Source: Proteromonas lacertae (lineage: Eukaryota; Sar; Bigyra; Opalinata; Proteromonadidae). From it: DNA of 64,000 nt. Below, one piece after another: positions 8,401 to 63,330 of the stretch. The first letter of the stretch is position 1. Every line of letters begins with the position of its first letter. Below the pieces are notes generated by a model. It ran no database searches and was not told where the DNA came from. It saw only the letters and a list, made by a program, of their open reading frames with translations. The position numbers and the translations under genes were made by a program. The stretch lies in contig NGBS01000901.1 in the NCBI GenBank assembly GCA_002245135.1, forward strand, positions 19,424 to 83,423, given 5' to 3'.

Positions 8401-10370
8401 AATTCAAGTGGAGTTTTTCCATTAATATCTTTCAAATTAATCAAACTTCCACATTCTAATAAATATCTAATTATTGGAATATAATCAATAGAAATTGAAG
8501 AATTGTAACAAGCCACATGCAATGGAGTTTGACGGTTTATATTTATACAATTCACTATATGACCCATCTCTTCAATCAAGCTTTTAACTCGAAGCAAATC
8601 ACAGGTTTGAACAGCGATATGTAAACTGGTATTGTGATTCTTATCAATCCATAAATGTGGGTTACTCACATCTTCTTTATCATTTTGTAATTTCCAATTT
8701 AATAATATCAAATCCATTCGATTCTCTAATCTAAATGAATTTGTTCTTTTCATTTCATAGCAGTTCCTTTTCGCCTCTTTAAACATTTCTTTACCATTCA
8801 AATGAAACAACAATCTTGGTAATTCACCACCATTTTTACTGTATATTCTATTCTTTTTTTTACATACTAATTCATGCCAATTATAAAAGATAGTTTTAGT
8901 ATGTTCAAAGCAAACTTGTCTTATATATAAATACCTCAACATTCTCCACTGATTTCTGTATTTATAATAATCTAACCATCTTCTAAAACAATAAATTAAA
9001 CGAAAATGATCACTATCATCTTTCCACCCAAATTGAGAAAGTAATGCTAAACTGATATTGTTTGATAATAATATATGATATATTCCAACCGTTCTAATCA
9101 TTTTTTGAGCTTTTAATCTTTTTCTCCATGTAAATAAACTGCTTTTCTTGTTTAATACATTACTTTTTAATTCTAAATAATTCTTATTCTCTCTCAATAT
9201 ATGACTTTTAGTTGAATAGTTCTTCCAACCACTAAAACATTTACTTAATCGTCGAATTCTATTTCCTCTTCCTCGACTTCTTTCTTTCCATTTTTCAAAT
9301 ACTTTTAACATTAATTTCATTGTGTAATGTTTTGTACTTTGACTGAATTGTTCTCTCATCACTTTGAGGATATGAACGAAACTTTTCCAACTTTTGAAAT
9401 ATCGACGAATATGTGCTTTTTGAGCTAAATCACTTAGTGAAAATTCACGAAGTTTACGACTCTATTAATAATAAAGAAATAGTATGGAAAATAAAAGGAA
9501 TAGAAGTGTATTAAAAAAGAATGAGTGTAAATAATCATTGATATATACTTGATATCTATTAATAAATCTTTCCCATTCACTTAATGGCTCTAAAAACACT
9601 GGTAAAGGTAATTCATTCTTCTTACAAATATGAAATACTGTCCATCTGTACCATATTTTAAATGATAATTTTTGTTTTTCTTTCAAATATACTAATTTCT
9701 TATGTTCTTTTATTATCTTTTCTCTTGTTGAATGTAACATCGCAATTGCTTTTAATCGATTGTTATATATCATTTTTACGAATTTCTTCCAATTATCGAA
9801 GTAATCACGAATATCAATTTCATTTGGTTTTAATTGTTTCTTTTCTAATTCTTTCTTTTTCTTCTCTTCTTCATCTTCTTCATCACTATCATTGTTATTT
9901 ATTACGATGTTCTTTATTCTGGATTTTCTTTCTATTTCTCTTAATTCTCGTTCTTGTGTTAATAAACTAAGTTCATGCTTTCGTTTCTCACGAATATATA
10001 CGTTGTAACTCCACCAACTACGAATCACATGGTCACACAGCTTTCGATTAAAGTGCTTCACAGATAACACGTAATTTCGCCAATCAATAAATATTAATAT
10101 ACAATTGTGGTGTTTTCGATTTATGTATCTCATAAATTTACGACGGGGGATTATCATTCTCCACCACGTTTGAATAAACACTATACTTTGACTACGACGT
10201 CTCTATTATTATATACTAATCATGCAAATTTATACTTCCAATTTGTAATGTTCTAAAAATATTCTGGTCTCTTCATCTTCTTTACTTGTGTCTTGATGGA
10301 ATGGAGCAAATATTTTGGGTTGCTTCATCATCATTTTTCTTTTATTCTTTATTTCTGCATCAGATAACAT
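2451..10370 (-). CDS. Giant IQ / Trp-repeat / ankyrin / coiled-coil protein (~2,599 aa)
   Basis: Three exons join cleanly: 10236-10370, 9549-10202 and 2451-9461, with introns of 33 and 87 nt, both phase 0, and a total of exactly 2,600 codons including the stop. The N-terminal quarter has an IQ-like motif (FIQTWWRMIIPRRKF) and many spaced W-containing helices of the type FxxWxxxxxxK, as in Sfi1 or IQ proteins that bind calmodulin or centrin. Around residues 535-630 are two to three ankyrin repeats (TPLHVACYNS, GKTPLELCGG). A long coiled coil follows to about residue 1,150, then low-complexity Ser/Asn/Glu-rich sequence to the end. The long third exon has no frame break. A centriolar or flagellar cytoskeletal role is plausible from the repeat types but is inference. 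Confidence 0.85.
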
Positions 10371-17124: not shown

Positions 17125-17191
17125 AATAGAATTAAAACAAGATTTGATTCCTGCTTGACTTAGATTTTATTGTTGTTTATCATTTTAAAAA

Positions 17192-32622: not shown

Positions 32623-33483
32623 TTATTTATGTAATTTATTAATCACCATCTCAGCTTCTCTTTCTTTCTTTTTTAAATATATAATTGGTTGTTCTAAAAT
32701 TTCATTCTTTCTTAGTTCTGAAAGTATTGATTTTAATTTTATTTCTCCATCATTTATTTTGCCTTGACAAGATGATCTATTTGATAATATATATAACCAA
32801 TAATCAATAATAATACATCGCATTTTTAGCTTTTTCCTTTATATTATCTATAATTCTTACTTTTCTATTTCTTTCAATTATTTTACTCTCTTTTTTAAAT
32901 AAGTCATTAAAAAATTTTACCACTCTATCATTCTGCAAATCTTCTTGTGAATAATATCTAACATGATTAACAATAGTTGTTATAATATCAACACAATCAT
33001 TGATTATTATTTCATCATCTTCATTACATAAGTCACAAAGTAAGGAATATACTATTGTAAAAGAATTAAACGGCAATAAACTTAAATCTTTATATTTTTT
33101 ATCTAACTGATTGTGCTTGTAGTATTTGATCTTATTTTTCATATCACCATTATTTCTATTACTCACTATATAAAAAAGATTCCTCACAATTTTATTTGAT
33201 AATATATTTCCTTGAGATATTAGATCACTGCATTTCCTATCATAACTTTTACTCTATTTTATATTATTATAACATAATTACATACCATCACTTCTACAAC
33301 TGATTTGTATGAAAAATCAATAATTGATGATTCATCTGATTCTTTTTCCTTTTTAATTTCTTCTAGTATAAATGAAAATGCAGATTGATAGAGTGAAGAA
33401 GATGGAATTTCGAAATTTTCATCCATCACATATTCCATTGATTCATCAACATAACTCTATTATCATTACAATAACATTAATAT

Positions 33484-33517
<34 letters not shown>

Positions 33518-36500
33518 CACTTAATAATTTGATAAATTCTTTGATTTCTATTTTTATATGTTTAAAGATATTCAAATATTTTAAATGATTCTTATGTAAT
33601 AATAGGAAGATTTCTATATAATATTTATAAGATAATAACTGATTTGAATTAGGTCTATCATCTAGACAATCTAATAATGGATTTAGTTTGTTTATTATTT
33701 CATTTTCTATTTCATTTATATTATCTTCCAACTCTTTTTCTTTTTCATTCATTTCGATCATTTTCTGAATAATCAATCATTATGTCAGAAAATTTATCAT
33801 TTATATTGAATTTCAGTTTTCTTTCTTTTATTAGATTATATAATATACATCCTTCAGATACACTTTCATATTTGTAATTCTCACAATTATTATTGTTATT
33901 ATTATTATCACTTTTACTTTTACTATCTTCATTTGATTTCGTTGATTTAAAGGTAATATTTTCTTTGGTTGTGTTATTATTATTGGTTTTACTGTTGAGA
34001 TTATCTTCTCTTTCTAATAAACTCAAATTCAATTCTTTATAATATGAATCATATTCTCTCATTTTAGATTTTATTGATTCTTGAATTATTTTGATTTTGT
34101 TTGTTCCACCTACTAATACACATTCTAATTGTTTCAATGTTATTGGATTTAAGTCTGAATCTTTGATTGTATTATCTATTAACTGATTTAACTGCTTTAA
34201 GAATCTAGAATCTTTCAAAATCTTATTGAATTCTTCTTTGGTTATTGATAAGTATTCTTTATTAATATCTAATATTCTTTTGATTTCAATAGTCATATCA
34301 TATATTTCATCTTGGCTGAATGATTCTTTAATCTGTTTTACTTCATTTAATAAATCTTTACTTATCTTTATATCATTTATTACCTCTTTTTTTGATTTTA
34401 TCTTATTTAATACTTCATGAACTAATAAATCATCTATTGTTGAACCATTTATTGAAGTGTCATAATGATGAGATAATATTTCTAGACCATTTATTGATTC
34501 TTCTTCATTTTCTTCATATACATTATCATCATCTACATCTTCATTATTTGTATATTTTACTATTGTGCAGTTACTATAAGATGAACCTATATCAATTATT
34601 AAACTATAATGTTCTTTCACAAAATTTTCTATATTTCGATATCCATAATTTATCGATGTTGATAAATAAGAAGGAATGATTTCTTTACATCTCAATCCAA
34701 TCATATTACAATATTCCATTATTAATATTCTTTTACTTTCATCGAAATATGAAGGAACAGATATTATTATGTCTTTTTTTACTTCTTCTTCTTCTTCTTT
34801 CTCTTCTGATTCAAAATCATTATCATTTTTATTATTCTCATTCATATTGATTATTTCTTTTATTTTACTTAATAACATTATATATAATTCATCTATTAAG
34901 AATATCTGTTTTCTATATTCATATTCTACTAGATATGCTATTCTATTGTTTTTTTCTTTTAATCTTATCGGTTTTAATCCAATTTTCTTTTCAAGATCTT
35001 TTTCAATATCATCATATATCCTACCAAAATATTGAGCAAAATTTGTAATGGCATTATTATAATCGTCATTTTCCACCAAATCATCAACAACATTTCCAAC
35101 ATATCGATAATTGCCTTTGAACAAAATTCCACATCTATATTTCAGTAGAATATTAAAAATAGATTAATATTATTATACGTTGTTTGTTCTTTGTGAGAAT
35201 CATTTAGTAATGGATATATTATTTCATTTATTCTATTTGTATCATAATAACATATTCGAATTGATTGATTTCCTATATCCACTCCATAACAATCACATAT
35301 TTTATAATTATGTTCAATCTTTAATGAATACATTTTTATCTTATTATCTATTTCCTTTCTTCTGCATTCTTTTAATTCTTTTTCTATTTCTATAATTTTT
35401 TCTTCTTTACCTTCATTCTTTCTCATCAATTCATTTATATTCTTCTTATCTATTTTTCTTTTCTTTTCTAATTCTAGTATTATTCTGTTATTCATTTCTA
35501 TTTTCTTCTTATTTTCCTCATCTTTTTTATTAAATATTTCCAACTCTTTTTCTAAATCTTTAATACTTTTTTCATTTTCTATATTTATATTTTGTAATTT
35601 ATTTACCTCCTTTGCTTTTTTATTTTTTAATTCTTTTATCTTTTTCTTCAACTCATTTATAATACTGTTCATTTCTACATTTTCTTCTTTTGCTGCAACT
35701 AATTCATTTGTTGTTTCTTTTATTTTCTTTTCATTATTTATATCTTTATCCTTCAATTCCTTAACCTCATTTTCTAAATCATTAATTTCTTTTAATCGTT
35801 TCATATAGTATTTTATTTTGTTGTTGTTTCTTTTATTTTCTTCTTCAGCTTTTTTTAATTCCTCTGCCATTCTTTTATTTTTCTTATCTTCAATTTCTTT
35901 TTTTCTTTTTAATTCATCAATCTCTTTTTTCTTCTTTTCTTCTATCTGTTTTATCTTTTCATTCAATTCAGATATTATCTTCTTACTATCTTCTTTTATT
36001 TCTTTTTCTTTTATCTGTAATTTCAACTGTTCAATTTCATTTTTGAGTTTTTTAATATCATTTTCTCTTTCTGGATTATTTAACATTCTATTTAGTTCAG
36101 TTATTCTGTTTTGAAATTCACTTAATTTTGATTTTAGTTCTTCTACAGATTTATCATCATCTCTATATTTTATTCTTCTTTGTATAATCATATACTTACC
36201 CAAATACTCTTCCATTTGCTTAATAATTATATCAATTTCTTTATTCTTTTCTTTTCTGTTAATCTTATTTAAACTAATATTATCTAATTTACCCTTACCA
36301 TAAGATAAAAAAAACTGACGAAATGATATTTCTTTATCTAATGCTATTAGTCTTTCATTTTTTATTGGAGGTTTTATAATCACACCTTTAATTGGTTTAT
36401 TTGTGTAAAAATCAATAGAAATTGTACCTTCACTCTCATCATAAGTAGATGGAATAAAAAAATATCCTCCTCTTGATATATGTGCTACTTCAGATACTAG

Positions 36501-39500
36501 AGGAATATTAATCCAGTGATAAACTTCATTTAATCTAAATAATGGTGATATATATGCATTGTCTTTTAACAGCTGTTTTGGAGATTTATATATATCATCT
36601 TTAAATAAATCTACATTAACACATACTCTTTCTGAAGGATTAAATACAATTATTAATTCAGTATTGTCTTCTTCAAATGTTACTGGAATTCTATAAAATG
36701 ATTATTAATATTGATTAATACATAGGATTATCATAGAAATGACGCAAGTTACTACAACCAGCATTTGTTCCGTCACTTTTTGACCATTTTCCATCATAAT
36801 GATAATGCAAATAACCTTCTCCTAATTCTGGACATCTTTCTACTTTTATATTACCTGGAGATTGTATTGTAAATGTGAAAGGTCCAAAAGTTGTTTCATT
36901 ATATACTAATAATTCTGCTATATAATTACCAGGAGTTAATGTGCTTAGATAAAGTTTACATGAATTACAAAAATAATCAGGATGATCAACTTCTAAACAT
37001 TTATTTTGATAATCATAATATCTTCCATTACCTTTATATATATTTATCATTACACCATCATCACAAGTCGTATGAAGGTATAAATAAAGATGAGTAGTTC
37101 TTTTAACCTCAATAAGATATTGAGGAGAAACAGTATGATGATTTTGACCTTTATTATTTTCTTTTGTCCATTCATCGTTAATGTCCAAATTAAAGTAATC
37201 AGTTATTCTAGAAATTCTAAATGAAGAAGAACCTCGAAATACTAAATTCATTGAAGCTGATTTATGAATTCTATTATATTTTAATAACATAAAAAATACT
37301 CATTAAAAAATGGAACTAATGTGTATTTACCTTTCTTCAATGTTATGGTTGATACACTATTATTCTTTGCTTGTATAGCTTCTCCTCTGATTCCTTCTTC
37401 AATATTAAATATATGATTTCCATCATTTTCAAATATTTGAAAAAAGGTTATATTATTAACTTCTTCGCAAGTACACACTAAATCACATAATTTTTCTAAA
37501 ATCTCAATACACCATTGATCATTTGATGGTTTATCTATTCTATTAGTTTTAATGATATAAATTAATTATACCTAATAATATTTTCAAATGTATTTTTAAT
37601 TCTTTGTCCTTCTCTCATTATAGATGCCGAATCTTTTGTAAGATCTAGTCCTATCATATGATAGTGGCTTTGAAGACCATATTGTGAATGAATAAGTTTT
37701 CATAATTTTCTCTTTTATGGTAAAAAAGAAGATTAAGAATATCAATAATATTTAATTATGTATATACAAAAAAGATATCAATCCAACACTAAGGTATAAT
37801 TCCCAGAATGTAGATTTTCACAAAATGAATAAATTGTATTATCAGTTTCTATTTTTTCATACTGATTTTCTGAAAATACAAGCTTTCCATTTGAATCAAA
37901 TAACAACATCACATATGAAAAATCATCATTTGATTTAAGTAAAACTCTTGTTGTTTTATTAATTGTCAATTTATATTGAGGTAATTGAGTGTAACTTCCT
38001 TCCTTTCTGCATTCTCCACCATCTTTTACATCTCCTGCGATCTTATATTCTATAAACTCATCTTCACACTTTAATAATGATAAATCAGTTACTATTGGAG
38101 ATTCTAATCTTACATGAATTTTACAATTGTTGTTGTTGTTTATTAAATAAGGAACAAACATATATTCACCTTTTTCTACTTCACATTCACAAGCATTCTC
38201 ATTAATCTGAATAACCATTCTTTTAATTGTATTATTATTGTCATCGCAATAAATTCTATTACCTCCTTTAAATAAAAATCCAGCTACTCTCTCATTTTCA
38301 CATTTCAAATAAATAAATATTTCTGTTTTTTCTTTTACTGCAATTTTCAATTGAGGTAGCATATAAAACAACTCTCCCATCAAGTTATAATCAGTTATCC
38401 AATCTAAACTTACTTGTCTATTATACTGAAATCTTTCCATAGGCAATGGTTTATGAGATATTATCATATTCTTACAAAACACCTATTATATCAATATACA
38501 TATACATTAATATTATACTCTTATAGTAATTGGTATTGGATATAAGTGATTTTCTTTTAAATAGGATACTATAACAAATTTTGATTTCTTATCAATGCAT
38601 ATTCTTTCCCCCCACACTTTTGATGGATTGTAAATTCTTTTCTATATTCAATATAACAATTTGATACTTATACTGTTGAAGGGTCTTTCACAATTCTTTT
38701 ACACTCTTCTCCTGTAATATCAACGAAGTTAATTAATTAAGATAATACTAAAGATATATTATGTTAAAGATATTTCAATGAAAATATTTATTACTGAATC
38801 ATTTTCATCTTTACTATGTCTTTCAAACTCAAAATATACTTCTCCATTATTACCTTCTTTTGGTGTAACTTCAAATGAATACTGATGTCTGAAATATACT
38901 TGGCTAGGCACGAATCTTGACAAAATATAATTGAAACTTTTATCATATGGATATATTTCTTTTTGATATGCAATAACTCTAAATAAATTACATTGATTAA
39001 GATAAATAATACATTCCATCACAATTATGCAATAATTTTTCATTTAAAAGAAACCAAGCAGCATTTACATGACAAAAACAATCAGCAGATTCTTCAGTAT
39101 AACCAATGTACTATTCCATAATAATAATCATACTATAGAATTACTTTTTTATGTCTATCATCCCATATATTATTATTAATATACCAAGGTCCTTTTATAC
39201 CATGAGCATTACCAACTAAAATCCACTTTTCACCTTTATATTCTCGATACTATAACAATACATAATAAACAAAATAACATACAGCTAATATAGCGTATCT
39301 ATGATTGTAACAATAAATACTTTCATCTAAATCTCCTTTTTCTTCTTTAACACTATCAAACGATGAAATAATTAATCCTTTACTATATAAATCATATAAT
39401 TCTTTCCATATTTCATCTAAGTTTTCTACCAATTCAGTTGAAGTATAATACCTACTTGCGCAACCAGTAAAACAGGATAATTCACAACTGAAATAATAAC

Positions 39501-40636
39501 CTGTGTAGAATACTTTTAATATCGCTTTCTCTAATAAACTAACCCACAATTCAGTTTGAAGTAATGATTGACCAATAAGCACATTAGCATTATCTTTGCC
39601 TATAAATTGCAAATCATCAACTATAACACTTCTATAACTACCATTGACATATAATTTAATAACATATTTACCATAAGGATTGTAAATTGGCCAATCGTCT
39701 TTGTTTTGTGGATATATCATATTCTTCAAATAGGTTGTTCCATATAATGCCATATGATTAGCAATTGCCATTACTGGCGAAATATTTGCACAATCTCCCA
39801 CAATCATTTGTTCTACAGATGGAGCTAAAAACCCATCTTTAACTACAACTTCTGGAACTACAGAATAAAACTCATGAGGTCTTCTCCAAACACCTTTATT
39901 TTCTTTTCTAATATCTTCAATTTTTCTATAATCAAAGTCATCATTGAAATATTCTTCGTCAGTATCAAATCTTGTATTATAAAGCTCATATTCACTAAAT
40001 ATATTGACCTGTACATCACCGATTGTAGAAGAATCTTTCAGTATTTTTGTTTGCTCATTTTCTTCTTTTTGATGATATATATATTTATCTTCTTTTGGAT
40101 ACGACTGTAAAAACTGTTTAACATTATATAAATAATTCTCTTTCTCTTTCTGATCTTCTTCTGATAAGCTGTTAGTAGAATTAAGCAGATCTTTTGCTAA
40201 ATTTAACAATCTTCGAGCTTCCAAGTTTTTTCCAGCCGATTTTAATGTCTGCGCGTATTCTAAACAGAATTTACCTTTCAAATAGTCCATTGGAGTTGTG
40301 AATACCTTATTTGGATAATTTAAAAAGCGATACTATAATTATACAATCTCTTATACATTATTAAGCTGATTCTCTGATTTACTATCAATTTCCTTGATCT
40401 TCTTCAGTATTTCAGATATACGGTTTATGTTCTTTTCATAACTATGAAAATAGATAAATAATACTTACTCAGGGTTTTGTGGATAAGCAGTCAAAACATA
40501 ATAGCCATATAAAGCCTGAAAATACAAGCTTCTGGCATATAACCACATCTCCTTCTTCTCCTTCTTTTCACCCTATGAATATATTTTAAATACATAATAC
40601 TTCTTTTATAAGTTTTTCTATGTCTTTTAAATTCAT
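32623..40636 (-). CDS. Calpain-type protease / coiled coil / Hsp110-like fusion (copy A)
   Basis: Read 40636 to 32623. The N-terminal helical region is MIT-like. A calpain-7-type protease core has Cys in VGDCANIS, His in YNHRYAIL and Asn in VGNAHGIKGPW. Calpain beta-sandwich (C2-like) modules follow (LPQYKLTINKTTRVLL, SPQYLIEVKRTTHLYL, HFYDNP). Then a ~250-residue Lys/Glu coiled coil runs in the same exon into an Hsp70/Hsp110 ATPase: YGVDIGNQSIRICYYD, VPSYFDESKRILIMEYC, LIIDIGSSYSNCTIV, LVGGTNKI. The exon 36.7-35.2 kb carries beta-sandwich, coiled coil and Hsp start without a break, and the next join (donor GTATAA at ~35.19 kb) is in phase. The C-terminal helical domain ends near 32623. Frame breaks occur near 39005 (T/A run), around 37.7 kb, and at 33757, where copy B lacks one base. 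Confidence 0.75.
33351..34247 (-). repeat. Gene-conversion tract 1, copy A side
   Basis: Visually identical to 41565-42460 except for one extra base at 33757. Both borders are abrupt: outside them the paralogues diverge strongly. It covers the distal Hsp110-like ATPase, a short intron and part of the C-terminal helical domain, intron (AT)n included. Confidence 0.85.
34390..34942 (-). repeat. Gene-conversion tract 2, copy A side
   Basis: Identical by eye to 42609-43161 over 553 bp. Separated from tract 1 by 142 bp that differ strongly in sequence and in length (148 bp in copy B). Confidence 0.85.
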
Positions 40637-40776
40637 TATAACCAAAATTTACACTCAAACCACGAACCTACGTCAAGCCAAAATTTCAATTTTTACAGTT
40701 GAATTAGCCAATAAGGAATAATCACTGATTAAATAAGTAAAACTTAATAATTAAATTAGTTATATTATCAAGGATA

Positions 40777-41697
40777 TTAATTATTCAACTTTTTTGTTTG
40801 ATTCTTCAAATTTTCAATCAAATAATCAACCTCTTTTTCTTTCTTTTCAATTTCTGATAATGGCTTGTTAATACTTTCATCATTATCTAATTCAGACAAT
40901 ATTAAGTTCAATTTAATGTTTATATCGTTTATAACTGTATTTGTATGATTTGTATCAACACATAGATATGTTGATGTATTTAATAATAATATGAACATTA
41001 TATATATATATATATATATATATACTTAGTAAATTCTATACACTCTTTTAAGTTAATTATCTTTTGTCTCTTTATATCTTTAATCACCATACACTTTTCA
41101 TTCAAATTTAAATAATTTAAATATTTCACTATTTTGTCAGTTTCTGTATTATTATTATCATCACTACTGTTATATTTTATATGAATAACTATTTTTGATA
41201 ATATATCAACACAATAATTGATTATATTTTCATCATTTTCATTACACAAATCACAAAGAAAAGAGCAGATGATTGGATAAGATTTTAATGATAGTTGATT
41301 CAAATAAGATAAATTTGTTGTTGGTGATTTGTTTTTGATTTTTTTACATATAAATGTCATTATATTCTTTGTTGGACTTGATTTTATATGAGATAATATT
41401 TTATCACATTTTGATAAATAACTGATTTTCTATTAACATTAATAATAATAATAAATATTATACCATATTCTCTACTATTGAATTATATTTAAAATCTATT
41501 CCATTTCTATTTCTCATTCTTCCACTTGTTGGACTTATTAAATCTCTTTCAGCTTTTTTACTTATTTTAATTTCTTCTAGTATAAATGAAAATGCAGATT
41601 GATAGAGTGAAGAAGATGGAATTTCGAAATTTTCATCCATCACATATTCCATTGATTCATCAACATAACTCTATTATCATTACAATAACATTAATAT

Positions 41698-41731
<34 letters not shown>

Positions 41732-44700
41732 CACTTAATAATTTGATAAATTCTTTGATTTCTATTTTTATATGTTTAAAGATATTCAAATATTTTAAAT
41801 GATTCTTATGTAATAATAGGAAGATTTCTATATAATATTTATAAGATAATAACTGATTTGAATTAGGTCTATCATCTAGACAATCTAATAATGGATTTAG
41901 TTTGTTTATTATTTCATTTTCTATTTCATTTATATTATCTTCCAACTCTTTTTCTTTTTCATTCATTTCGTCATTTTCTGAATAATCAATCATTATGTCA
42001 GAAAATTTATCATTTATATTGAATTTCAGTTTTCTTTCTTTTATTAGATTATATAATATACATCCTTCAGATACACTTTCATATTTGTAATTCTCACAAT
42101 TATTATTGTTATTATTATTATCACTTTTACTTTTACTATCTTCATTTGATTTCGTTGATTTAAAGGTAATATTTTCTTTGGTTGTGTTATTATTATTGGT
42201 TTTACTGTTGAGATTATCTTCTCTTTCTAATAAACTCAAATTCAATTCTTTATAATATGAATCATATTCTCTCATTTTAGATTTTATTGATTCTTGAATT
42301 ATTTTGATTTTGTTTGTTCCACCTACTAATACACATTCTAATTGTTTCAATGTTATTGGATTTAAGTCTGAATCTTTGATTGTATTATCTATTAACTGAT
42401 TTAACTGCTTTAAGAATCTAGAATCTTTCAAAATCTTATTGAATTCTTCTTTGGTTATTGTTAATTTTAAGTCTTCATTATCAAAATGTAAAAAATTGGG
42501 TATGCTAATTGCTACACTATTCACTTCTTCTTCACTTAATTTCTCTTTACCGATTTTTAATCCTGTGTATAATTTCTTACATTTTCTAATATCTTTTGTT
42601 ATTAATTCTTTTGATTTTATCTTATTTAATACTTCATGAACTAATAAATCATCTATTGTTGAACCATTTATTGAAGTGTCATAATGATGAGATAATATTT
42701 CTAGACCATTTATTGATTCTTCTTCATTTTCTTCATATACATTATCATCATCTACATCTTCATTATTTGTATATTTTACTATTGTGCAGTTACTATAAGA
42801 TGAACCTATATCAATTATTAAACTATAATGTTCTTTCACAAAATTTTCTATATTTCGATATCCATAATTTATCGATGTTGATAAATAAGAAGGAATGATT
42901 TCTTTACATCTCAATCCAATCATATTACAATATTCCATTATTAATATTCTTTTACTTTCATCGAAATATGAAGGAACAGATATTATTATGTCTTTTTTTA
43001 CTTCTTCTTCTTCTTCTTTCTCTTCTGATTCAAAATCATTATCATTTTTATTATTCTCATTCATATTGATTATTTCTTTTATTTTACTTAATAACATTAT
43101 ATATAATTCATCTATTAAGAATATCTGTTTTCTATATTCATATTCTACTAGATATGCTATTTTGTTTAATGTTCTGTTTAATCTTATAGGTTTTAATCCA
43201 ATTTTATGTTGAAGTTCGTTTTTCATTTCATCATCATATATTCTACCAAAATATTGAGTAAAATTTGTAATGGCATTATTATAGTCTTTATTATGCTAAT
43301 TAAAATAGAAATATTATTATTATACTATATCATCAACTACATTTCCTATACAACGATAATTGCCTTTGAATAAAATTCCACATCTATATTTCAATAGAAT
43401 ATTAAAAATTGATTGATATTATTATACGTTGTTTGTTCTTTTTGGTATTCATTCAATAATGGAGATATTGTCTCATTCATATTATCATAATAACATATTC
43501 GAATTGATTGATTTCCTATATCAACTCCATAACAATCACATATATTATCATCAATCACATCTTCTTCTTTATCTTCTTCTTCCTTCTTCTTCATTTGTTA
43601 TTGTTGTTGGTGTGAATAAAGGAGGAGGAGAATCATTCACAAAATGATTATGTCGATTAGTTGGTTTTAGAGGAGTTTTATATTCATAATTATCATTAAA
43701 TATTTGATTATCTTCATCATTATTCTCATTATTATAATGAGTGTTTTCTGTGTTATTGAAGTTATTATTATCTTCAAATTCATCTTGAAAAGAATCATTA
43801 TCATCATTATTATTCTCATTATTTCTTTTATTATTTTTGCTATGATGTTTATTGTTAGTGTTTGAGTTGTTGTTGTTATTTACCATCTCTTTTAATGTAT
43901 TAATCTCTTCTTCTATCTCTTTAATTCTCTTTTCATTATCATCGTTCTTACTTTTTAATTCATTTATTTCATTTTCCTTTTTATTATCTTTGTCATTTTC
44001 TGTTGAATAGGTTTGTATTTCAATATCATTCATTTTAGGCTTTTTCTCTTTTTCTTTTTCGTTTTTCTCTTCTAATACTTTTATCTTATCATTCAGCTCA
44101 TTTATATATTTGTCTTTTTTATTCATTTCTTCTAATGTTAAATTATTTTGGATTCCTACATCATTCATTTCTACTTTTCTTTCTTCTTGTTTTTCTTGAT
44201 GTTGTTTCAATATTTCTATTTCATTTTTAATTTCTATTATCATTTTATCTTTTTCTAATATGATTTCTTTCATATTCTCATTTTCTTTAATCAACTTATC
44301 TATAATATCATCTTTTTCAGTATTTTCTTCTTTCTTTTCATCTTCATCATCTTCATTTATATTTTCTTTCACTTTTAATTCTTCCATTTCATTTTCCAAT
44401 TCTTTTATTCTTTCTTCTTTTCTTTCTAACTCATCTTTCATCTCATCTAATTCTTTACCACTTGATGAATTATTTTCTTCAGTTTCATTAATTATTAAAT
44501 CATTATGATCTTCTAATATCGTTAATATTAATGAATCTATTTTACTTTCATTCATTATTAAAAATGATTCACTTTTATTTTCTTTGATTTTAAACTCTCT
44601 TTCTTCATATCTATTACGTTTTATCTCATTGCCATTTATCAACTCAAAATTCTCTAATTTACTTTCTTCTTCTTGATAGATTAGATTAATTGTGTTGATT

Positions 44701-47700
44701 GATGTTGATAAATTTACTTCTCTTTTGTTCTTCTTTTCTAATTCTTCATATTCTTCTTTTTCTTTTTCTTGTTGTTGTTTCAATATCTCTATTTCATTTT
44801 GAAGTTCAATTATTGTATTATCTTTTTCTACTATGATTTCTTTCATATTCTGATTTTCTTCATTCAAATCATCTATATCACCATTTTTTTCTCCTTCTTC
44901 TTCTTCCTCATCTTCCTCATCTTCTTGTTCATTCACTTCTTCATTATTCTCTTTACTCTCTTTTATTATTTTATCTATGGTGTTGTTGAGATTATAACCT
45001 TCATCATCATCATCTTCTTCATTTTCTTCTACACTTTCTTGGTTATTCTCTTTTTCCTCATTTTCAACAACATCATCTTCTTGCCGTTGTTTTAATATTT
45101 CTATTTCATTTTCCAATTCTTTTATTCTTTCATTTTTTCTCTCCAATTCATCTTTCATATCATCAAATTCTTTCCTTCTAGCTGTATCATACACTTCAAC
45201 TGGAAAATTATCTTCATTATCCATATATTCGTTATTACTATATCTAATTAACCAACCCAAATATTTAATCATCAATGCAATTCCATTAATTAATGTAAAA
45301 GGTTTCTTTATTTCATCACATTTCTCTCGATATTTCAATACATCCAAACATTCATATTCTATTTTTTGATTGCTTGAAATTAGTATTTCCTTCATATCAA
45401 ATGTGATATTAGGTTGTATTGGTACAATCACTAATGTATATTCTCCTTTCATTATCAAATTACATACATAATTATAGTTATTATAATTACTACAATAATT
45501 ATTGTCTTCATTATGGCCAATTTCTTTAAATGTATCTTCACTATGAACAATCTCTCCTTTTGAATTATACACATGTAAATTGAATAAATATTTGTCATTT
45601 TCATCATTAAAAGTGAAATATATTTCTCCATTTTCTTTTACATTTAACTTATATTGTGGAAATTGTGATAATGGACCACCATTTATATACTTATAATCAT
45701 ATTTATCAACTGTTAGAGTTGTATTAATCAATTCATTTCTTTTATAAATAAATCCATCAACTATTTCATCACTTAATATTTCTATGTTTATTACTAAATC
45801 ATTATCGAAATTATTCTCTTTGTTTCTAATATATGGTTGAATATAAAAGTATTCTTCTTTGCTAATAGACTTATAATAGCAATTTCTGTTCATAACATCA
45901 TTTAATGATTCTTCATTATTGCTATTCTTGACTTCTTTCACTATTCCTCCAATCATTTCATTTTCGCATTCCAATAATATCAAAACTTCAGTCTCAAAAT
46001 AAGAGTATATACATATATTGTCAGGTTTTGAATAACAATTATAATCTATTGAATAATTGAGTTTATATTTATATTCTGTAAATGGAATTCTAGATACTTT
46101 TAGATTCTTTCCATAAAAAGAATAAGAAACAGTTAATGGATATTTCTCATCATTATGAAATGAAGAAAACAATATATACTTTGAATTTTCATTAACTGTT
46201 ATATATTTATCAAATATTTTATAAAAATAATCTGTATATGATTTGGATGGAATAGTTATTTGTCTTTTTATATTCTCACTTTCTTCTATTTTACTAATAT
46301 CAACATGAATATATTCTTTTGACTGTTCTTCACTAATATAATCTTGTTCACACTCAATATACAACATACTTTCTCTGTTTTTATCAATTATATTCACTTC
46401 TATTAAACATTGATCTTTAAAATAATCAAGTGGTACAATTGATGGAATTGAAGTATGATAGGTGAAATACTTTTTATATATATCAGGCGAAAAAACACAT
46501 TGACTATTTATAAATAATAATAATACTAATTATATATATATACATAGAATCAAAATCATCAATAATATCTTCTATTTTTACCCACATCAAATTAACATAT
46601 CGATATATTTCACTCAACTCTTTATCATAACATAATACTCTATTATGAATATTATCACTCCAAATAACATCATTATTAGGATTTCCACTATACCAATATC
46701 CCTTTTTATGATGTGCATTTCCTAATAATATCCATTTCTCATCATTTACCATCTTCATCTATATATATATATAAATTAATATGAATAATATACTGATAAT
46801 ATGGAATGACGATGTGTATATGTTATTAATTCATCTTTTTGATTTTCTACATCTTTATTTATTGTTGATATTGTAGCAATACATTTCCCTCTATTAAATA
46901 ACTCATATATTTCATTCCATATTCCATTAATATTCTCTTTTAATTCTTCTTTATATGATTTACTACACCAACCAGTAAAACAGCTTAATTCATTTGTTAT
47001 CTTACAACCATTATAATACAATTTAGAAATAGCTTTTTCAACTAAAGTTACCCAAAATTCTTTATTTATAATAGATTCTGATAGAGTGGATATAATTCTA
47101 TCATCAACTGTAATACTTCTAAAACAGCCATTACAATAGAGTTTTATAATATATTTACCATAAGGATTGTATAATGGATTATTATCCTTATTAATTGGAT
47201 ATATAATATTCTGTAAAAAAGTTGATTTATGCAAACACATATGATTACTTATGCTCATTATTGTAGCTATTTTTTCACAGTCATTTACAGTAAGTTGTTG
47301 AATTGCTGGAGCAATAAACATATTTTCATCTTCATAGTTTGATATTATCTTTGGAATATAGTCTAATATGTAATAACTGTGCTTATATTCTTCATTATTT
47401 ATATTTGATACAACTTTCTTTCCATATTCGATTTCTTCATCATTAAAGAATGAATCTTCACTTTCATCTATTTCTTCATTCTCTATATCAAATTTAATAT
47501 CGTTTATGATTTCATTTTTATTAAATATTGGAGCATTTACTCCATTTATATTGGAGCATTCTTCTAACAATTTCTTTTCTTCATCACTTATTTGGTTATT
47601 AAAAACATCATCTTCAGTAATTCTTTTCTTCTGTTTTTCTTCTTTATTTGCTTCTTCTTTTAATATATTTATTTTTGTTATATATTCATCTCTTTTATTA

Positions 47701-48261
47701 CTATTTTCAAATATATAAATGATAATAAAAATACATTTCTTCTTCATTCAAGTTTTTACATATTTCAAACAATTTAAACGATTTATCTAACAATCTTTTA
47801 CATTCTGTTATGTTACCATATTTAAATAAGGTTTCAGAGTATTCATAGCAAAATATAGCTTTTAAATAACACAATGAAGGCTTTTTACGATTAAGATATG
47901 ATTCTGTAAGTAGTTTATTTGTAGTAAACACACCATTTTCATCAAACTAGCTTATGAATATATTTAATCTTTTATACACTAAATGTGACTTTATTGTCTC
48001 CTTTATTTTCTAATGATTCTAATTTTTCTTTTATCTCTACAATTTTTTGTTGACACATACTATAACTATTCAATAATAACGGATTTATACTCTGATTCAT
48101 CACATACTGAACTAAATGAAAGATAACACAACAGTGATTGAAAATAATAACACCTAGCGCTAGAATAGAGTTCCTGATCTCTTAATTCATCTGCCTAATC
48201 TCATTATAGAATCTAATTAACATACAATCTCAATATATTTATTGTAACGATAAAAATTCAT
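40777..48261 (-). CDS. Calpain-type protease / coiled coil / Hsp110-like fusion (copy B)
   Basis: Read 48261 to 40777, same domain order as copy A. The MIT-like N-terminus (ELYSSARCYYFQSLLCY) is followed by a protease core with Cys in VNDCEKIA, His in YTHRHSIL and Asn in LGNAHHKKGYW. From 47747 to 43569 all joins are in phase, so protease, beta-sandwich modules (FPQYKLNVKENGEIYF) and a ~550-residue acidic coiled coil are one gene. The Hsp110-like part starts at CDCYGVDIGNQSIRICYYD near 43555. It is in a different frame from the coiled-coil exon, which stops at 43569 (GRRR), overlapping an ATG at 43594. Copy A has the same junction in one frame, so a one-base problem in the GAA-repeat is likely. 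An alternative is two overlapping genes. The Hsp part reads open through 41697 and its C-terminal helices end at 40777. Confidence 0.75.
41565..42460 (-). repeat. Gene-conversion tract 1, copy B side
   Basis: Partner of 33351-34247. Identity extends through a noncoding intron, so it reflects recent copying and not protein constraint. Confidence 0.85.
42609..43161 (-). repeat. Gene-conversion tract 2, copy B side
   Basis: Partner of 34390-34942, covering the proximal Hsp110-like ATPase lobe (VPSYFDESKR to DDLLVHEVLNKIKSK). Confidence 0.85.
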
Positions 48262-48388: not shown

Positions 48389-50857
48389 TTATAATTTATT
48401 GCTTTTGTCTTGAGTTTTCTTATCTTGCATTTGACTTTCCAACTCTTCAAACATCACTTTTCTCACTTCTTCAGGATACATTCCTTGAAGCTTCAAAATT
48501 TCCTCAATCGACAATGCCTTAGCATAATACTCATCTTGTATGTACAAATAAATCAAGCCATTATTTTTAATCTCTTCTATCACATATTCTTCTATCTTTT
48601 CAAACACTTTTATATCAAATGTCTTACTCTCCATATATTTCTGGTCAAAATCATTTACTATCTGTTCAGGAAGTGTCAATGGATGTTTTCCATCAGTTCT
48701 TATGAATTTATCGTATATATTTTTAATCTCATTTTCTAATTTTTCATGGGATAGATTAGAAGTTTTTAGATTCTGCAATCTGATCAGAAATTTTACCAAT
48801 TTGTGGGAAGTGTTTTCTTCTTTCTTGAGGCAAAGTACAAATCCTGCTACTTTTACTGGTGATTGTAAAATTTCTTCTAATAACAGTGATGGATCTGTAT
48901 AACGTGAAATATATTGAGGAGAATAACATATCTTACGATAAGCCTAACAATATATATTTACATTTATATTTATATTTATACAAAAAAAATAACATAAGAC
49001 CAAATAGCAACAATGGCAATAACAATTGTTAAAAATGTATAATTAGGAAGAATGGAAATTGATGAATATTCAGTTAAATCATAACTATATGCATAAGATC
49101 GGGTAATGAATAATAAATATAACACAACTGTAACTGATGATATTAATAATTGTTCTTCTGTTGGTGGAAGTGATTGTAAATATATATCGGAGACTGTTAA
49201 TAGGATATATAAACCTTGAAGAACCTAAATATAAATATAAATATATGATAATAGTAGAATTATAGAAAATGAGTAAAATTATAGAAATTTATATATACAA
49301 TTATAATAAAGACTATTCTTGATAATTCCACTTTATTACATATCTCCAAATTCATACTATATCCATTACCATTCATATATTTCTTAATTTCAACACTTTC
49401 ATCTCTTATATATAAACAATAAACAAAACTCATAAATAATGTCAAATATTGAGGAAATATAAATCCATAATACTCAAACGACACTTTCTTTCGACATACA
49501 GCGATATGATATAGGCATTTATTCAATAAATTCAATAAACTAATCAAAGCATAATAAATATACAACAATATATAGTATTTATAATATATACATAAACAAA
49601 GCAACTGGAGCTACAGATCTAATCATGTTAATTACCGTACAAATGTCTTTATTAGGTTTTGCATATAAGAAAAACACTTCACTTTGGATAATCATTACAA
49701 CTACCACTATAAATGAATAGGAAGATGGATTGGCGTTAATTAAGAATCTAAGATGCCTATACTTGTTGAGCAACAGTCTGGAGCATAGAATGAGGAAATT
49801 TATTACAAATACAATAATATTGATTATTAAAAATGTATAATCAAATTTATATTCTGAAATCTTTAACAACCATGGCCATTCATAAGGAAATTGAAATGAA
49901 CAGTTATTTTCATTTGAACATGTTTGATTATCCACAACAACCAATGTAATTGATCTATATACAATATAAATAGACAATTATAGAAAATATAGTCGTTTCA
50001 TACTCAGAAATATTTTTTTCAAGGATTTGAATTATTTCGTATTCTGAATATTTGTTGAAGTAAGGATAATTATCTTCAAAGCTGCAAAACATTGTATTGA
50101 ATGGAACACAAATTGTCTTTGTTAAATCACATTTTGGGTTTCTAACAGGACATAAATCTTCACTTAGCACATTTTTACTTCTACCATTTATCTTATCATC
50201 AGGATAACAGTTATATAACTCTGAAGAAGCTAATTAACATAATTTATTGATTTATACATTTAAAAAAGTCATCCAAGATACTACTAGTAAATGTATCTTC
50301 AAATAAACATATTTCTTTACTCACCATTTTTGTAGCTGTAATTTCACTCAATTTCTGTATTAAAATGCCTATTGACATTCCTTTGTATATATAATAGAAT
50401 ATTTTCTTAGATATCTCAAATCTTGAGTCTAATAAAACTTCTTCTTTCAACATTGAAATGTATTTTGTATAACGAGGAATAGTGAATTGATAAGCATAGT
50501 TTTGATCACCTAAATATTGAGGCAAAGTGTATGGTAGATTCTGAATGATATTTGTTTGAATAAAATGCCAACCAATAGGAGAGAAGTATTCATGTTCTAG
50601 AAAACAAAAATTTATAATAAAAAAAAATAAAATTAAAAAAAGAAGTGTGTTTTTATAATATATATACCATTAATTGTATCTTCCTCTAATTGTAATGCAA
50701 ATATTCCTTTCACATTTAACTTATTATCTCTAATGAATGACAATACATTTAATAAATCTGCATTGGGTGATGTTATAATTAATATTGATGGATTTAATGA
50801 CTTTAATTCATCAAATATTGTTTCAAATGTGTAATAGAATGAAACATCATCATAATC

Positions 50858-57118: not shown

Positions 57119-57827
57119 TTAAATATCAAAATCTATATCTTGATTTAATTTGTTATGATCAAAAAAGATTATTATTGCAGTTATATTATCATTAGAACCA
57201 CGCAATAAAGCTTCTTGAATTAAACTATCACAAGCATTTTGAAGATCATTTGTTTCATTGATCTTTTCTAATATAAAATTCACTACTTCTTGAGATGTCA
57301 TTGAATCATATAAACCATCACTTGCTATTACACAAAATATATCATCATTTATTAAGATTTCTTCACTTACATCAGGTTTCTATTCATTTATAATAATATT
57401 TATATATATATATATATATATATTCATACAACTGTTAATGGATCATCTAAAAATCTTTTTCTCCAACATTTTTCTTTTAACAATTTATATTCAATATCAC
57501 CAAATCCACGACTAACTCCCAATATTCCATTTAATCGATTATTTGTTACCCAACCACCAGCACTTTCAATTCTCAGCTTTTCATCTGGTAGAAACGGTTT
57601 GTGATCTTTTGTCAAATCAACTGCTTCACCATTCCTGCATAATACAACTCGACTATCACCACTATGACTTATATATAATGTACTTTGACGTAATAGCACT
57701 ACAGCTCCTGTACTTCCACTATAATCAATATGAGCTTGTTTGATTAGATTCTCCATATGATTTAAACATTTCTCACCACTTAAAATTGTACTACTATTAT
57801 TTATACTATGTTGGGATTGTTGTGTTA

Positions 57828-57861
<34 letters not shown>

Positions 57862-60800
57862 CATTGGATTTGGATTTAAACTATCACCTGATAATAATAA
57901 TAAATTATCTTTATCACTTTCACCATTTTCTTTCCCTTTTAATATCACATTTGCACTTTGGCTTCTACTGTTACTATCAGCTATTGATACTCGACGACTT
58001 TTATTATTCATATTACTTGGACTTATTATATTTGTTGGACTTACACTGATATTATTAATTGTTATAGATTGTAATGGAGATATTACATCCACCGATTTAC
58101 ATCCATATAAATCATAATTCATTGGTGATAAAGAATTACATTTCATTAAGATTGAATGATGATTTTCATTCTTTTTACGATTATTACAACTTTCTTCATA
58201 TTTCAATACTAATTTCTTATACAAATTTATATCTAAATCATTTACACTATTATTTATCCATTCTTTATCTAATTCTATAAATGTATTAGTTAAAGCATTT
58301 AAAGTATTTCTCATAAAATTCGGTTGTTCCATCAAAATTCGAGGGAAATTCTTACATAAAAATTCTGCACATTCACTTCCATTATGTCCATCAAATACTC
58401 CAAATAACCCTTGTTCTGTACTTACTTGTTTTGTATAATTATTATAATCCAATATACATAAATGACGATCTTCCATATAATTTGGTGAACCTTTTATTGC
58501 ACAAGTTGCTACTTTTATCATTAAACTATCATTACTCATCGTTGTACTGACATTCACTGTTCGAGGTAATACTCCTTTATATTTCGATACTTTACGATTC
58601 ACTAGTAAACTATCTACTAAATCTTCCATAAATAAATCACCACCACTTAAATTCTCTAATTCATAATCACTTTCTGAATCATTATCAGATAATGATGAAG
58701 CAGATCTTTGAGCTCGGCTTGTTCGTTTTAATGCTTTGTGAGTGTCAAACCTTCCTGCTGAACTTGATCGTTTCAAATGATTTCCACCATTTTCATTATT
58801 TATTATCACTTTATTATCACTTGTATTACTTAATCGATTTATTTTTATACTTCCATGTCGAATTAAATTCTTCCCTTTTTTCTTTTCTCGTTTTTCACTT
58901 CTTTCTCTCATTATTTGTAATAAATATTTACTTCTTTCACCTTTCCCTTTAGGTAATTCAAAGAACTTTCGCATCTGTTCTTCATAGGCTGTTTCCATCA
59001 AATCATTTGGATTTATTATGGATATTGAAGTACCACATCTTGGTCTTTGAATTGGACTTGTTATTTCACCTGCTGATTTACGATTCTCTCGACCTTTTGC
59101 AGTTTGTCTTACACAATCAACATAACTATTGAATCTTTGAGCTCGAGCCTTTTTACGATCACTTTTACTTTCATTTATTTGTTCTTCACCCACTGTATTA
59201 CTATTACTTCCATTTGTCATATCATTCGATTGTAATGAACCAGAAGAACAATATGATGATGGAGTTTGTTGTTGTTGTTGTTGTAAAGAAAAATCATCAT
59301 TTATTCCAAATATATCTTTATTACATTCATCTGGTTTGAATATCTGTTTTAATAATCCACTTGGTCTAGTTACTGTTGAATCTATTGCATTTCTCTTACG
59401 ATTTTGTTGTTGTTGTTGTTGTTGAATATGTGTTCGAGAATTTCGAATCCATTTCTCTAATCCATTGTGAAGTAATTCTCTTACTTTCCAATGATCTAAC
59501 GTTACTGGCATTATTCACTTCATCATCTGTTAAGATTAATTTGTGTTTATTTGTATATATTAATGGATTTATTCCACATTTCGTTGTCCAACGATGAACT
59601 CGAGCTTGATCTAAAGTCATTCGATTTTCTATTTCTTTGGTTAATAATTTGGTTATTAAATCTATCAAATCTGGATCTGTTCCTTTAGGAAATGAAGGTG
59701 TTTTGGAATGAATTGCTTGAAATAATTCTATTTGTGTACTACCAATAAATGGTGGTTCACCAAATAGAAAGTAATATAATGATATTCCCATTGCCCAAAT
59801 ATCACTCAATGGATTTATACTTGCTGAAGCTTCCCATAATTCAGGAGCCATAAAGGCAGGAGAACCATTCACTTTATTTTCACGAGTTAATCTCGAGATA
59901 CCGACGATTGTTTGTTGTGCTTCACCAAAATCACTGATTTTCACTTTTCCACTATTTGTTACTAGTAAATTTGATGGTTTTATATCACCATGAACGATTC
60001 CTTGTTGGTGTAAATATGTTAAACCTTGAATTATATCACGAAAATAACTCCAAGCAGTTTTTCTATATAAATCAATATAAATATAAATCACTATACAGTT
60101 TCTAAAGGTCGACATTTAATAGCACTTTCTGGTAAAGCAACTCCTCCTTCAACATGTTCTAATATCAAATAAACTTGATTACTTCGTGGATCATCTATTA
60201 CTTCATATAATCTAACTACATTTGGATGATTGAGTTTTTTCATTATTGCAATTTCTCTCATTAAACATTCATTTGCAGTCTATACATATAATAATAAAAT
60301 AAATAGAAATTTATATTTATACTGGATCAGTATGACCTGTTTTTATTGATTTATTTAATATTTTTATTGCATATTGATTTTTTTGAAGGATCTTCGCACA
60401 ATTCTACTTTACCATGAGCTCCTGCTCCTAATTTCTTTATTATTTTGTATTGATTGATATGTCTATTGCCACTTTGATCTACTTGTAACTTTAATAGATT
60501 TGTTTGTTCCATTGGTTTATCAATTGTTACATGTCGTTTTAATTTTGCATGAACATTTTCACCTATATCACAAGCTATTGTACTGTTCTTTTTTGCATTT
60601 TCTTGAGCTTCTCTTTCATGGGATGTTGTGGAATTTCGAGGTGATTCGTTTGTAAGCCAATCATATACTTCAGGATTATCACATTCTTCAGAACAATAAG
60701 ACATACCAACTGATCCTATTGATTGACGTGCATGTCTCCCACCTACAACAGATTGACCAATTGGTCTGACTGAAGGTTTTATTATATTGTTAGATGATGA

Positions 60801-61048: not shown

Positions 61049-63330
61049 ATGAATTGGGATTCAGGTGAGATTTATTATTCAGATCAGCATTTAGTAGATG
61101 CTAGCGAATCATCTACTTTAGAACCTTTACAAGCTCAAACAAAGTTTCAAGAGTTTTTAAGGGATTATCGTGAAAATAATGTTTATATATACCGGTATAT
61201 TTAAGTATAATTATATTTTCTTTTACTAGAAAATCATTATTGGAAAATTTCAACAGAGGTGAATATTTTGTAGAAATTGATTTAGCTCATTTAGGAATAT
61301 TCAACAATATTCTACTTGATGTATTACAGAGAGAGCCAAATTCTTATTTACCACAAGTACATCATATATAATGTTTATTTGTTCTTAATAGTTTGAAATT
61401 GCAGCTCAAAAAGTAGTGGAAGATGAATTAAATGTAGAAAATTCTCCCTCAATCAATGTATTATTAAAAAGTTCTCAAAGTTCAGTTTCAATCGATCATT
61501 AAATGTATAAATGAAATGAATTTTAATATTATATATATAAATAGGCAAATCATGTGAATAAACTAGTGAGTATTTCAGGATTAATAATCAGTGCATCTCG
61601 TTCAAGACCAAAAGCTATCAAAGTTGCAATACGTTGTTCAAATTGTAATTATTTAAAGTATATTCCAGTTCCATCTGCATTTGGAAATGTTCAATTACCT
61701 CGAAGATGTGATCGTCCTAGAAATGAAAATGAACAAGAATGTCCACTTGATCCATTTGTAATAGTAAGTGATAGAAGTGTTTATGTTGATCAACAAAGTT
61801 TAAAGTTACAAGAAATTCCTGAAGAAGTTCCAACAGGTGAAATACCTCGTCATATTTTATTAAGTGTGAATAGATATTTAGTTGATAAAGTCAGTCCAGG
61901 ATGTAGGGTAAAAATATTAGGTATTTCCAATGTGTTTAATGGTAAAGACACTTCAGTTAATGGAATTGGAATTAGAACTCCGTATATGAATGTTGTTGGA
62001 TTGAAATTAGAAAATGAAGGAAGAGGTAGAAGTGATGTTAATTTTACAAGTGAAGAAGAAAATGAATTTCTTCGAATGTCTAAAGATAAAGATATTTATG
62101 AAAAATTATGGAAATCAATAGCTCTCAAATTAGTGGTTCTTATACTGTTGATATGAAGAAAGCAATTTGTTGTTTGTTATTTGGTGGAAGTAGAAAAGTT
62201 TTACCTGATGGAATGAAATTGAGAGGTGATGTGAATGTGTTATTTTTAGGAGATCCATCAACAGCTAAAAGTCAATTCTTGAAATTTGTAGAAAAAATAG
62301 CTCCAATTGGTATATATACAAGTGGTAAAGGAAGTTCAGCCGCTGGTTTAACAGCAAGTGTAATAAAAGATAGTAATGGTGAATTCTATTTAGAAGGTGG
62401 TGCAATGGTATTAGGTGATGGAGGTGTAGTTTGTATAGATGAATTTGATAAAATGAGAGAAAGTGATCGAGTAGCAATCCATGAAGCAATGGAACAACAA
62501 ACAATATCAGTAGCAAAAGCTGGAATAACCACAATATTAAATAGTCGAAGTAGTATATTAGCTGCAGCAAATCCAGTTTATGGAAGATATGATGATAGTA
62601 AAAGTAGTAGTGAAAATATCGATTTTCTACCAACAATTCTAAGTCGATTTGATTTAATCTTTATAGTTCGAGATATTCGAAATGAAGAAAGAGATAAAAA
62701 TATGGCTCATCATATAATCAACATTCATTTAAATATGAATATGAATAATAATGGTGTAAATGATAATAATAATGAAAATGGAATAATAAGTAATGAATTA
62801 TTAAAGAAATATATAAATTACTGTCGACATAATTGTGCTCCTCGTTTGAGTAATGAAGGAATGGAAGAATTAAAAAATTATTATGTAAAAATCCGTGAAG
62901 ATGTTCGAATTAGAGCTAATGCTGAAGGAAGTGCCAATCCTTCAATTCCAATAACAATTCGTCAATTAGAAGCAATAATTCGAATAAGTGAAAGTTTAGC
63001 TAAGATGAGTTTAAATATGAATGCTAGTGTAGAGAATGTGAAAGAAGCGATGAGATTATTTAATGAAAGTACAATGAATGCATGTCGAAGTGGTTTAGTA
63101 TTAATGAGTGATAATTTAAGTGATGATTTAAAGAAACAGATAGAGAAAGCTGAGAATAGTATAAATCGTCGATTAAGTGTTGGTTCAATCGTAGTAGTTG
63201 ATAAATTGATAAGAGAGTTAGAGAATATAGGTTTAAATGGTTATGCAGTTCGTCGTGCTATTCAATTGTGATAAGTAAAGGAGATTATATAAATCAAAAC
63301 AACGAAAAAACAATGAAAAGATTAAAGTGA
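61049..63330 (+). CDS. MCM5: MCM5, replicative helicase subunit (three single-base frame breaks)
   Basis: Exons 1-3 give the N-terminal A-domain ([33 protein letters not shown]). The following exon gives [20 protein letters not shown] and a zinc-ribbon-like CSNCNY...CDRP...CPLD. The ATPase part has [13 protein letters not shown] (Walker A), [10 protein letters not shown] (Walker B), ILAAANPV (sensor 1) and [13 protein letters not shown] (arginine finger). The C-terminal winged-helix region ends with SKGDYIN and MKRLK just before 63330. In the MCM2-7 ring MCM5 sits at the 2/5 gate. Three one-base deletions are needed to keep the frame: ~61493 (before RSLN), ~62124 (SIA to QISGSYTVD) and ~63268 (AIQL to ISKGDY). 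The first would otherwise give a stop in exon 3 and the third a stop at 63271. All catalytic motifs are intact. Confidence 0.9.

Follow-up and report, generated by a model that had tools for sequence, protein, structure and literature searches.

Tandem Proteromonas lacertae genes with a calpain-type protease and an Hsp110-like domain, probably joined in a single chain in one copy

Does a calpain-type protease of Proteromonas lacertae continue, through a long coiled coil, into an Hsp110-like domain of the same polypeptide, and what could such a domain do there? The locus that raises this question lies in a window of 64 000 nucleotides, the whole stretch of DNA analyzed here (C369:19424-83423), in a genome of 50.2 Mb and 1181 contigs. 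The DNA has a G+C content of ~21-30%, and the introns are short, in most cases of the GTAT...TAG kind. As an earlier sequence-only reading had proposed, two genes with a common domain order, here called copies A and B, stand in tandem (Table 1), with only 140 nt between the end of B and the start of A; yet they are not simple duplicates, as the two proteases have 35% identity and do not form a sister pair in a tree, and their Hsp parts include tracts of 100% identity. Copy A, and B judging by its remains, would encode N-terminal helices, a calpain-7-like cysteine protease, several beta-sandwiches, a long coiled coil, an Hsp110-derived nucleotide-binding fold and a helical tail. For copy A taken alone, a single calpain-Hsp chain is fairly probable. 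The arrangement is probably a domain architecture new to the calpains, for which we infer a function below.

The same reading had known of no described calpain-chaperone fusion. Likewise, none of the papers listed in our searches of the open-licence literature described a calpain-Hsp70 architecture, which leaves its absence from print unproven. In a survey of 44 eukaryote genomes, Zhao and others (PMC3563603) counted 24 domains that occur together with CysPc, in 41 architectures, and Hsp70 is not one of the 24. None of the words hsp70, heat shock and chaperone occurs in the main text of PMC3563603, PMC4631099 or PMC13413365.

Table 1. Positions of the modeled features of copies A and B in the window
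Feature	Position	Strand	Details
Copy A, whole modeled gene	32623..40636	-	own splice model; start ATG at 40636
Copy A, N-terminal helical exons, MIT-like by eye only	40357..40636	-	no Pfam match at E<=1
Copy A, CysPc protease exons	39013..40332	-	Pfam Peptidase_C2 6.2e-16; predicted triad Cys256, His419, Asn439 of the model
Copy A, calpain-type beta-sandwich exons	36722..38978	-	tblastn to C751; Calpain_III 19.4 bits; frame break ~37.65 kb
Copy A, linking exon	35179..36690	-	open 1512 nt: end of last beta-sandwich, coiled coil, Hsp start (YGVDIGNQSIRICYY)
Copy A, intron from linking exon to Hsp exon, in phase	35135..35178	-	GTATAA...ATATAG; B has a 44-nt intron at the equivalent place
Copy A, Hsp110-like nucleotide-binding domain exon	33745..35134	-	HSP70 4.7e-20; Lys71 position Ala, Glu175 position Ser
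Copy A, range with two tracts 100% identical to B	33438..34932	-	60-column windows; one single-base gap; diverged block ~34.39-34.22 kb
Copy A, helical tail	32623..33744	-	past the one-base break ~33.75 kb, which is absent from B
Copy B, protease to helical tail	40777..48261	-	splice model; first exons 48261-47978 uncertain
Copy B, CysPc main exon	46776..47700	-	Peptidase_C2 2.3e-12; predicted triad Cys253, His408, Asn428
Copy B, beta-sandwiches, coil, Asn/acid-rich linker	43569..46503	-	one open frame, ends at 43569
Copy B, start of Hsp frame	43428..43594	-	ATG at 43594 overlaps the end of the coil frame; C818 locally in frame
Copy B, Hsp110-like domain and first helical tail exon	41697..43295	-	532 aa ORF; HSP70 7.6e-21; Lys71 position Thr, Glu175 position Ser

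The protease and its neighboring domains

Both copies match the profile of calpain peptidase family C2 and are predicted to be proteases. Peptidase_C2 scores 58.7 bits in A and 47.1 bits in B against a cut-off of 23.8, in each case within a single ORF, and the spliced domain of A alone reaches an E-value of 4e-18. The triad residues keep a conserved spacing in the two spliced models, in agreement with the initial assignment of a CysPc domain with Cys, His and Asn in place. In comparison with the paralog C751, three exons of the protease part of A give dN/dS values of 0.305, 0.306 and 0.325 (NG86), which points to purifying selection. When the joined 2094-aa model of A is scanned as a whole, HSP70 is found at 3.6e-21 and Peptidase_C2 is not among the families at E<=1, which we take to be a filter effect of biased composition. 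Of the three profiles expected at this locus, Peptidase_C2 and HSP70 were recovered from single ORFs of both copies, whereas the best Calpain_III score for the C2L/domain III beta-sandwich of A remains borderline, below the 21-bit cut-off. The N-terminal exons, previously described as MIT-like, are helical by eye, but the two N-terminal segments of A matched neither MIT nor any other Pfam family at E<=1, and a PDB sequence search with them returned no MIT chain.

The protease of A and B may be close to calpain-7. Like proteins of the calpain-7/PalB type (MIT-MIT-CysPc-C2L-C2L), the two copies have a papain-like CysPc domain with its triad, tandem beta-sandwiches behind it and helical N-terminal exons; they differ in the addition of the long coil and the Hsp110-like domain, and in that MIT is not recovered by profile. 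Human CAPN7 is described as being brought to midbodies by IST1 via its tandem MIT domains, with protease activity needed there (PMC10586806). A six-frame search of the genome for IST1 gave no match, and neither did its controls.

The coil that follows the beta-sandwiches has a hydrophobic period of 3.5 residues, which in A was reached by none of 200 shuffles on either measure; for B, 11 of 200 shuffles reached the maximum and none reached the mean. The stretch of B from protease through coil had been called one clean gene. It is indeed open across four short introns (GTAT...TAG or similar), but joining the first N-terminal exons (48261-47978) to it in a single frame failed by eye.

The Hsp110-like part

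The HSP70 profile is matched by a single ORF in each copy, and the best PDB sequence match of both Hsp parts is Hsp105, an Hsp110, as the name Hsp110-like had implied. The match of the joined A model spans positions 3-350 of the 599 in the profile, which is the nucleotide-binding domain (NBD) alone. Alignments of the A and B Hsp parts contain no beta substrate-binding domain, and the helical tail that follows the NBD has no profile match to a helix-bundle domain. In a predicted model of the B ORF, the NBD pattern extends to about residue 345 and is followed by helices with almost no strands; the mean pLDDT is 56, and most of the tail lies below 50. A fold search with this model yielded 231 PDB matches at E<=0.001 (best E 1.3e-17); the best 50 of the 231 are NBDs of the Hsp70 family, full-length Hsp70s, an Sse1 and a fusion of Hsp70 with Hip, and their TM values are just 0.27-0.45. 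The Hsp part is accordingly predicted to be an Hsp110-like nucleotide-binding fold without a beta substrate-binding domain.

In Hsp70, the gamma-phosphate is reported to be sensed by Lys71 (DnaK Lys70) and Thr13, and Mg2+ waters to be coordinated by Glu175 (PMC12406271). The equivalent of Lys71 is Ala in A and Thr in B; it is Lys in five of six related loci of the genome, the sixth (L047) not being found by the pattern. At the Glu175 position both copies have Ser, while the related loci have Glu in five cases and Asp in one. The Thr13 position is Asn as aligned by eye, and the fused NBDs carry Asn/Glu-rich inserts. Since the Lys71 and Glu175 equivalents are lost, an unfolding ATPase seems unlikely, and the suggested recognition or unfolding of clients by this part is further disfavored by the profile match to the NBD alone, the lack of a beta domain in the alignments and the few strands after residue 345 in a model of low confidence. 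With Hsp110/Grp170 proteins such as Hsp105 and Sse1, the part has the NBD in common and, by eye, DxG-type phosphate loops of the Hsp110 kind; it differs from them in the missing beta domain, the two lost positions and its place C-terminal to a protease. HSPA13/Stch likewise consists of an NBD without a substrate-binding domain (PMC9691929), but is a stand-alone ER protein with no protease fused to it.

Related modules occur elsewhere in the genome. A search with the Hsp ORF of B found 68 matches, including C624 (35%), C693 twice, C998 and C685, and the modules at the last three contigs seem to open at their own Met right before YGVDFG. At C624, a Ser-rich stretch lies upstream of the module, with an SPRY-like ORF further up that scores below the cut-off; this locus also holds the sole relative of the helical tail that was found (37 residues, E 7.8e-6). 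A protein search with the same ORF scored 7991 candidates and gave none at E<=1e-5, probably because it was swamped by Asn/Glu-rich words.

Joins, frame breaks and shared tracts

The uninterrupted exon said to link beta-sandwich, coiled coil and Hsp start in A is present and open over its full length. The ORF to which it belongs (36701-35142) contains the end of the beta-sandwich, ~300 coil residues and the start of the NBD (YGVDIGNQSIRICYY), and the exon enters the Hsp phosphate-1 loop YGVDIGNQS. The next join was also correctly read as in phase: once the 44-nt intron is removed in the splice model, phase is kept into the exon with the HSP70 match. As the protease-coil frame of A runs into the Hsp domain, no protein ending at the coil is possible from that frame. 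In B as assembled, the coil/Hsp join is out of frame, with the coil ORF stopping at 43569, the Hsp ATG at 43594 and the two frames overlapping. A single chain in both copies, as had been proposed, is thus borne out at the join by the continuous frame of A, but B breaks at exactly this point.

Two further frame breaks lie in A. In the splice model, the assembled frame of A comprises coding exons from the ATG to a stop at 33745, and the tail down to 32623 is open just in other frames or beyond the break at ~33.75 kb. This break is a one-base length difference from B inside an otherwise 100% identical A/B tract; the other in A, at ~37.65 kb, is a one-base difference from C751 and C283. A second assembled copy of B, contig C818, is 99% identical over window positions 47976-42231 and was alignable to B only downstream of 47976 in the comparison made. 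Between it and B there are 18 gap runs, among them 12 one-base gaps within the coil, a further run at the join and another in the Hsp part. The reading frame of C818 continues locally across the coil/Hsp join, but this is weak evidence in view of the many other one-base indels against B. For A, the genome search gave no second copy. Every assembled copy has a flaw somewhere along its length, and the assembly carries one-base errors.

At least 33 Peptidase_C2 matches were found in the genome. In the CysPc block, A shares 71% identity with C751 and C283, 48% with C1111, 39% with C1146 and 35% with B, while the nearest relative of B is C1111 at 40%. In an 11-row tree, A clusters with C751/C283 at a support of 92/98, and the partner of B is C1111 at 86/92; neither grouping is starred. 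A clade of the A and B proteases is rejected (p-AU 5.29e-5), with the caveat that B has an odd make-up, and a simple tandem duplication of the fused gene is disfavored on this ground. Like A and B, the paralogs C751, C283, C1111 and C1146 are calpains with beta-sandwiches and a coil; unlike them, none of the four has a match to the Hsp NBD or tail in the 9.9 kb searched for each (tblastn, E<=0.01). C751 and C283 end in a different block of ~100 residues, for which 4HBT_2, the best Pfam match in C751 (E 0.049), was not accepted.

In 60-column windows, the Hsp parts of A and B are 100% identical at ~34.93-34.40 kb and at 34.22-33.38 kb (one gap) and 52-80% identical between these tracts; most of the first exon is at 77-90% identity and the tail at ~40-80%. 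Because the identical tracts alternate with diverged blocks, we see here a sign of gene conversion between the tandem neighbors in their Hsp part. The overall pattern would fit either an old fusion that the paralogs have lost or the passing of the 3-prime half from one of the two tandem genes to the other.

Competing explanations and a possible role

Each copy could instead consist of two genes, one for the calpain and coil and a separate Hsp110-like gene with its own ATG just upstream of the Hsp domain. That ATG would encode the Met preceding YSLKIEH in A and would lie at 43594 in B, and the unbroken frame of A would be accidental or part of a dual-use transcript. The stop and the ATG at the join of B, the apparent Met starts of the modules at C693, C998 and C685, and the close spacing of genes seen between B and A all point in this direction, and a random joint is in frame one time in three. 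However, A has no stop with which a separate calpain protein could end before the Hsp domain, the overlapping frames of B leave no space for a promoter and an end signal, and C818 is locally in frame. We consider two genes per copy unlikely. Just as unlikely is that one or both copies died recently, the fusion having existed and now decaying through its frame breaks. Two breaks in A and one in B would agree with decay, as would fused NBDs in which active-site residues are lost and Asn/Glu-rich inserts gained; the dN/dS of ~0.31 in the protease part of A argues against it. The break at ~33.75 kb lies within an identical tract and C818 reveals many one-base errors in the assembly, and assembly error is therefore at least as likely as decay.

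Matches to RIB43A and IFT46 in the genome make it very likely that the organism builds cilia or flagella, and they would suit a chain that is a ciliary part, not a proteostasis enzyme, namely a calpain-like structural component of the central apparatus to which an Hsp70-type partner is fused. The best PDB sequence match of the A CysPc domain is FAP42 (7n6g, E 1.2e-9), and HSP70A of the same entry ranks second for A and fifth for B among PDB Hsp matches, though a PDB entry in common is weak evidence. When the joined A model was used to look for long relatives, with residues 225-560 scored, a search that reaches only proteins of ~1150-3660 aa with exact five-letter words in common gave three matches among 795 candidates, all of them androglobins. 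Androglobin and FAP42 are likewise long proteins with a calpain-like domain; their partner domains differ, and we know of no Hsp domain in either. Neither the kinase-like parts of FAP42 nor the globin part of androglobin is seen in A or B, and the kept Cys/His/Asn triad also speaks against a structural role. In Chlamydomonas, FAP42 and HSP70 are both reported as C1b/C1f parts, and FAP42 and androglobin as having the calpain-like domain in common, but the same study recovered no Hsp70 among the C1b/C1f-associated proteins of Tetrahymena (PMC8175508). A ciliary part is in our judgment somewhat more doubtful than either two genes or dead ones.

We tentatively favor, at a little under an even chance, one long chain with the Hsp110-like arm as a fixed adaptor and the calpain cutting nearby; the frame breaks in every assembled copy weigh against it. 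In this chain the coil would dimerize the protein, and the calpain part would make limited cuts in whatever comes near. The Hsp110-like part would no longer work an ATP-driven cycle and may act as a fixed adaptor or scaffold, either holding an Hsp70 face to face via the NBD, as Hsp110 does, or anchoring the protease within a larger complex. The Hsp110 Sse1p is reported to require ATP binding but not hydrolysis, and to hold Hsp70 NBD to NBD (PMC4753570); its grip also uses the helix-bundle domain, to which the tail found here has no profile match. The Hsp module may be used in several contexts of the genome, with tandem gene conversion keeping those of A and B alike. A recruited calpain whose own catalytically silent Hsp110-type arm holds an Hsp70 and its client beside the protease, allowing limited cleavage of proteins bound by the chaperone while the arm itself consumes no ATP, is the most doubtful proposal considered here.

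If the chain is real, calpains can acquire a chaperone-derived pseudo-ATPase, and the two genes would offer a direct test of Hsp110-type folds as adaptors without hydrolysis. It would also mean that tandem genes with low-complexity coils can share their C-terminal half by gene conversion.

Sequence identity between the tandem copies and related contigs

Copies A and B, the two predicted tandem calpain-coil-Hsp110-like genes, share tracts of 100% identity between window positions 34932 and 33438 of copy A and the corresponding part of copy B. These tracts flank a block, roughly 170 nt long and inside the Hsp70-type nucleotide-binding domain (NBD), where the two copies have diverged, a pattern that we read as patchy gene conversion. 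The other assembled copy of B, on contig C818 (L058), carries numerous one-base indels relative to copy B, and it no longer aligns with B upstream of window position 47976; this contig is poorly polished or chimeric. On contig C693 (L045), the related Hsp110-like gene has as its neighbor a frame in which units of the EVEVYxNxxGNEEWKEAKV type recur; judged by eye, these units are perhaps tudor-like.

Neighboring genes in the window

Several further genes were found in the window (see table). Open reading frames of hydrophobic make-up at 49260-49977 adjoin the RGS domain, with which they perhaps form a 7TM-RGS protein.

Additional features in the window and in the genome assembly (G000)
Feature	Location	Strand	Match
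2336-aa open frame with ankyrin repeats	window 2451-9461	-	4.7e-8
Glycosyl hydrolase family 35 beta-galactosidase	window 15256-17166	-	7.4e-63
RGS domain	window 48389-48943	-	E 4.4e-9
PP2C phosphatase	window 57424-59514	-	3.1e-38
MCM protein	window 62102-63271	+	MCM5 C-terminal model 1.1e-6
Two Hsp70 NBD matches, one 1021-aa open frame	G000:C139:253121-255514	+	profile 2-374 and 1-373
Hsp70 gene pair, opposite orientation	G000:C139:287584-289398 and 291849-293663		equal scores
Hsp70 gene pair, opposite orientation	G000:C1119:266625-268439 and 402578-404392		equal scores

The Hsp70 family across the genome

The Hsp70 family is very large in this genome, with at least 65 matches from a search in which 54 of the 365 first-look candidates were scored. 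The 1021-aa frame on contig C139 is a possible double-NBD protein, and the Hsp70 pairs on contigs C139 and C1119 are arranged as inverted duplicates would be.
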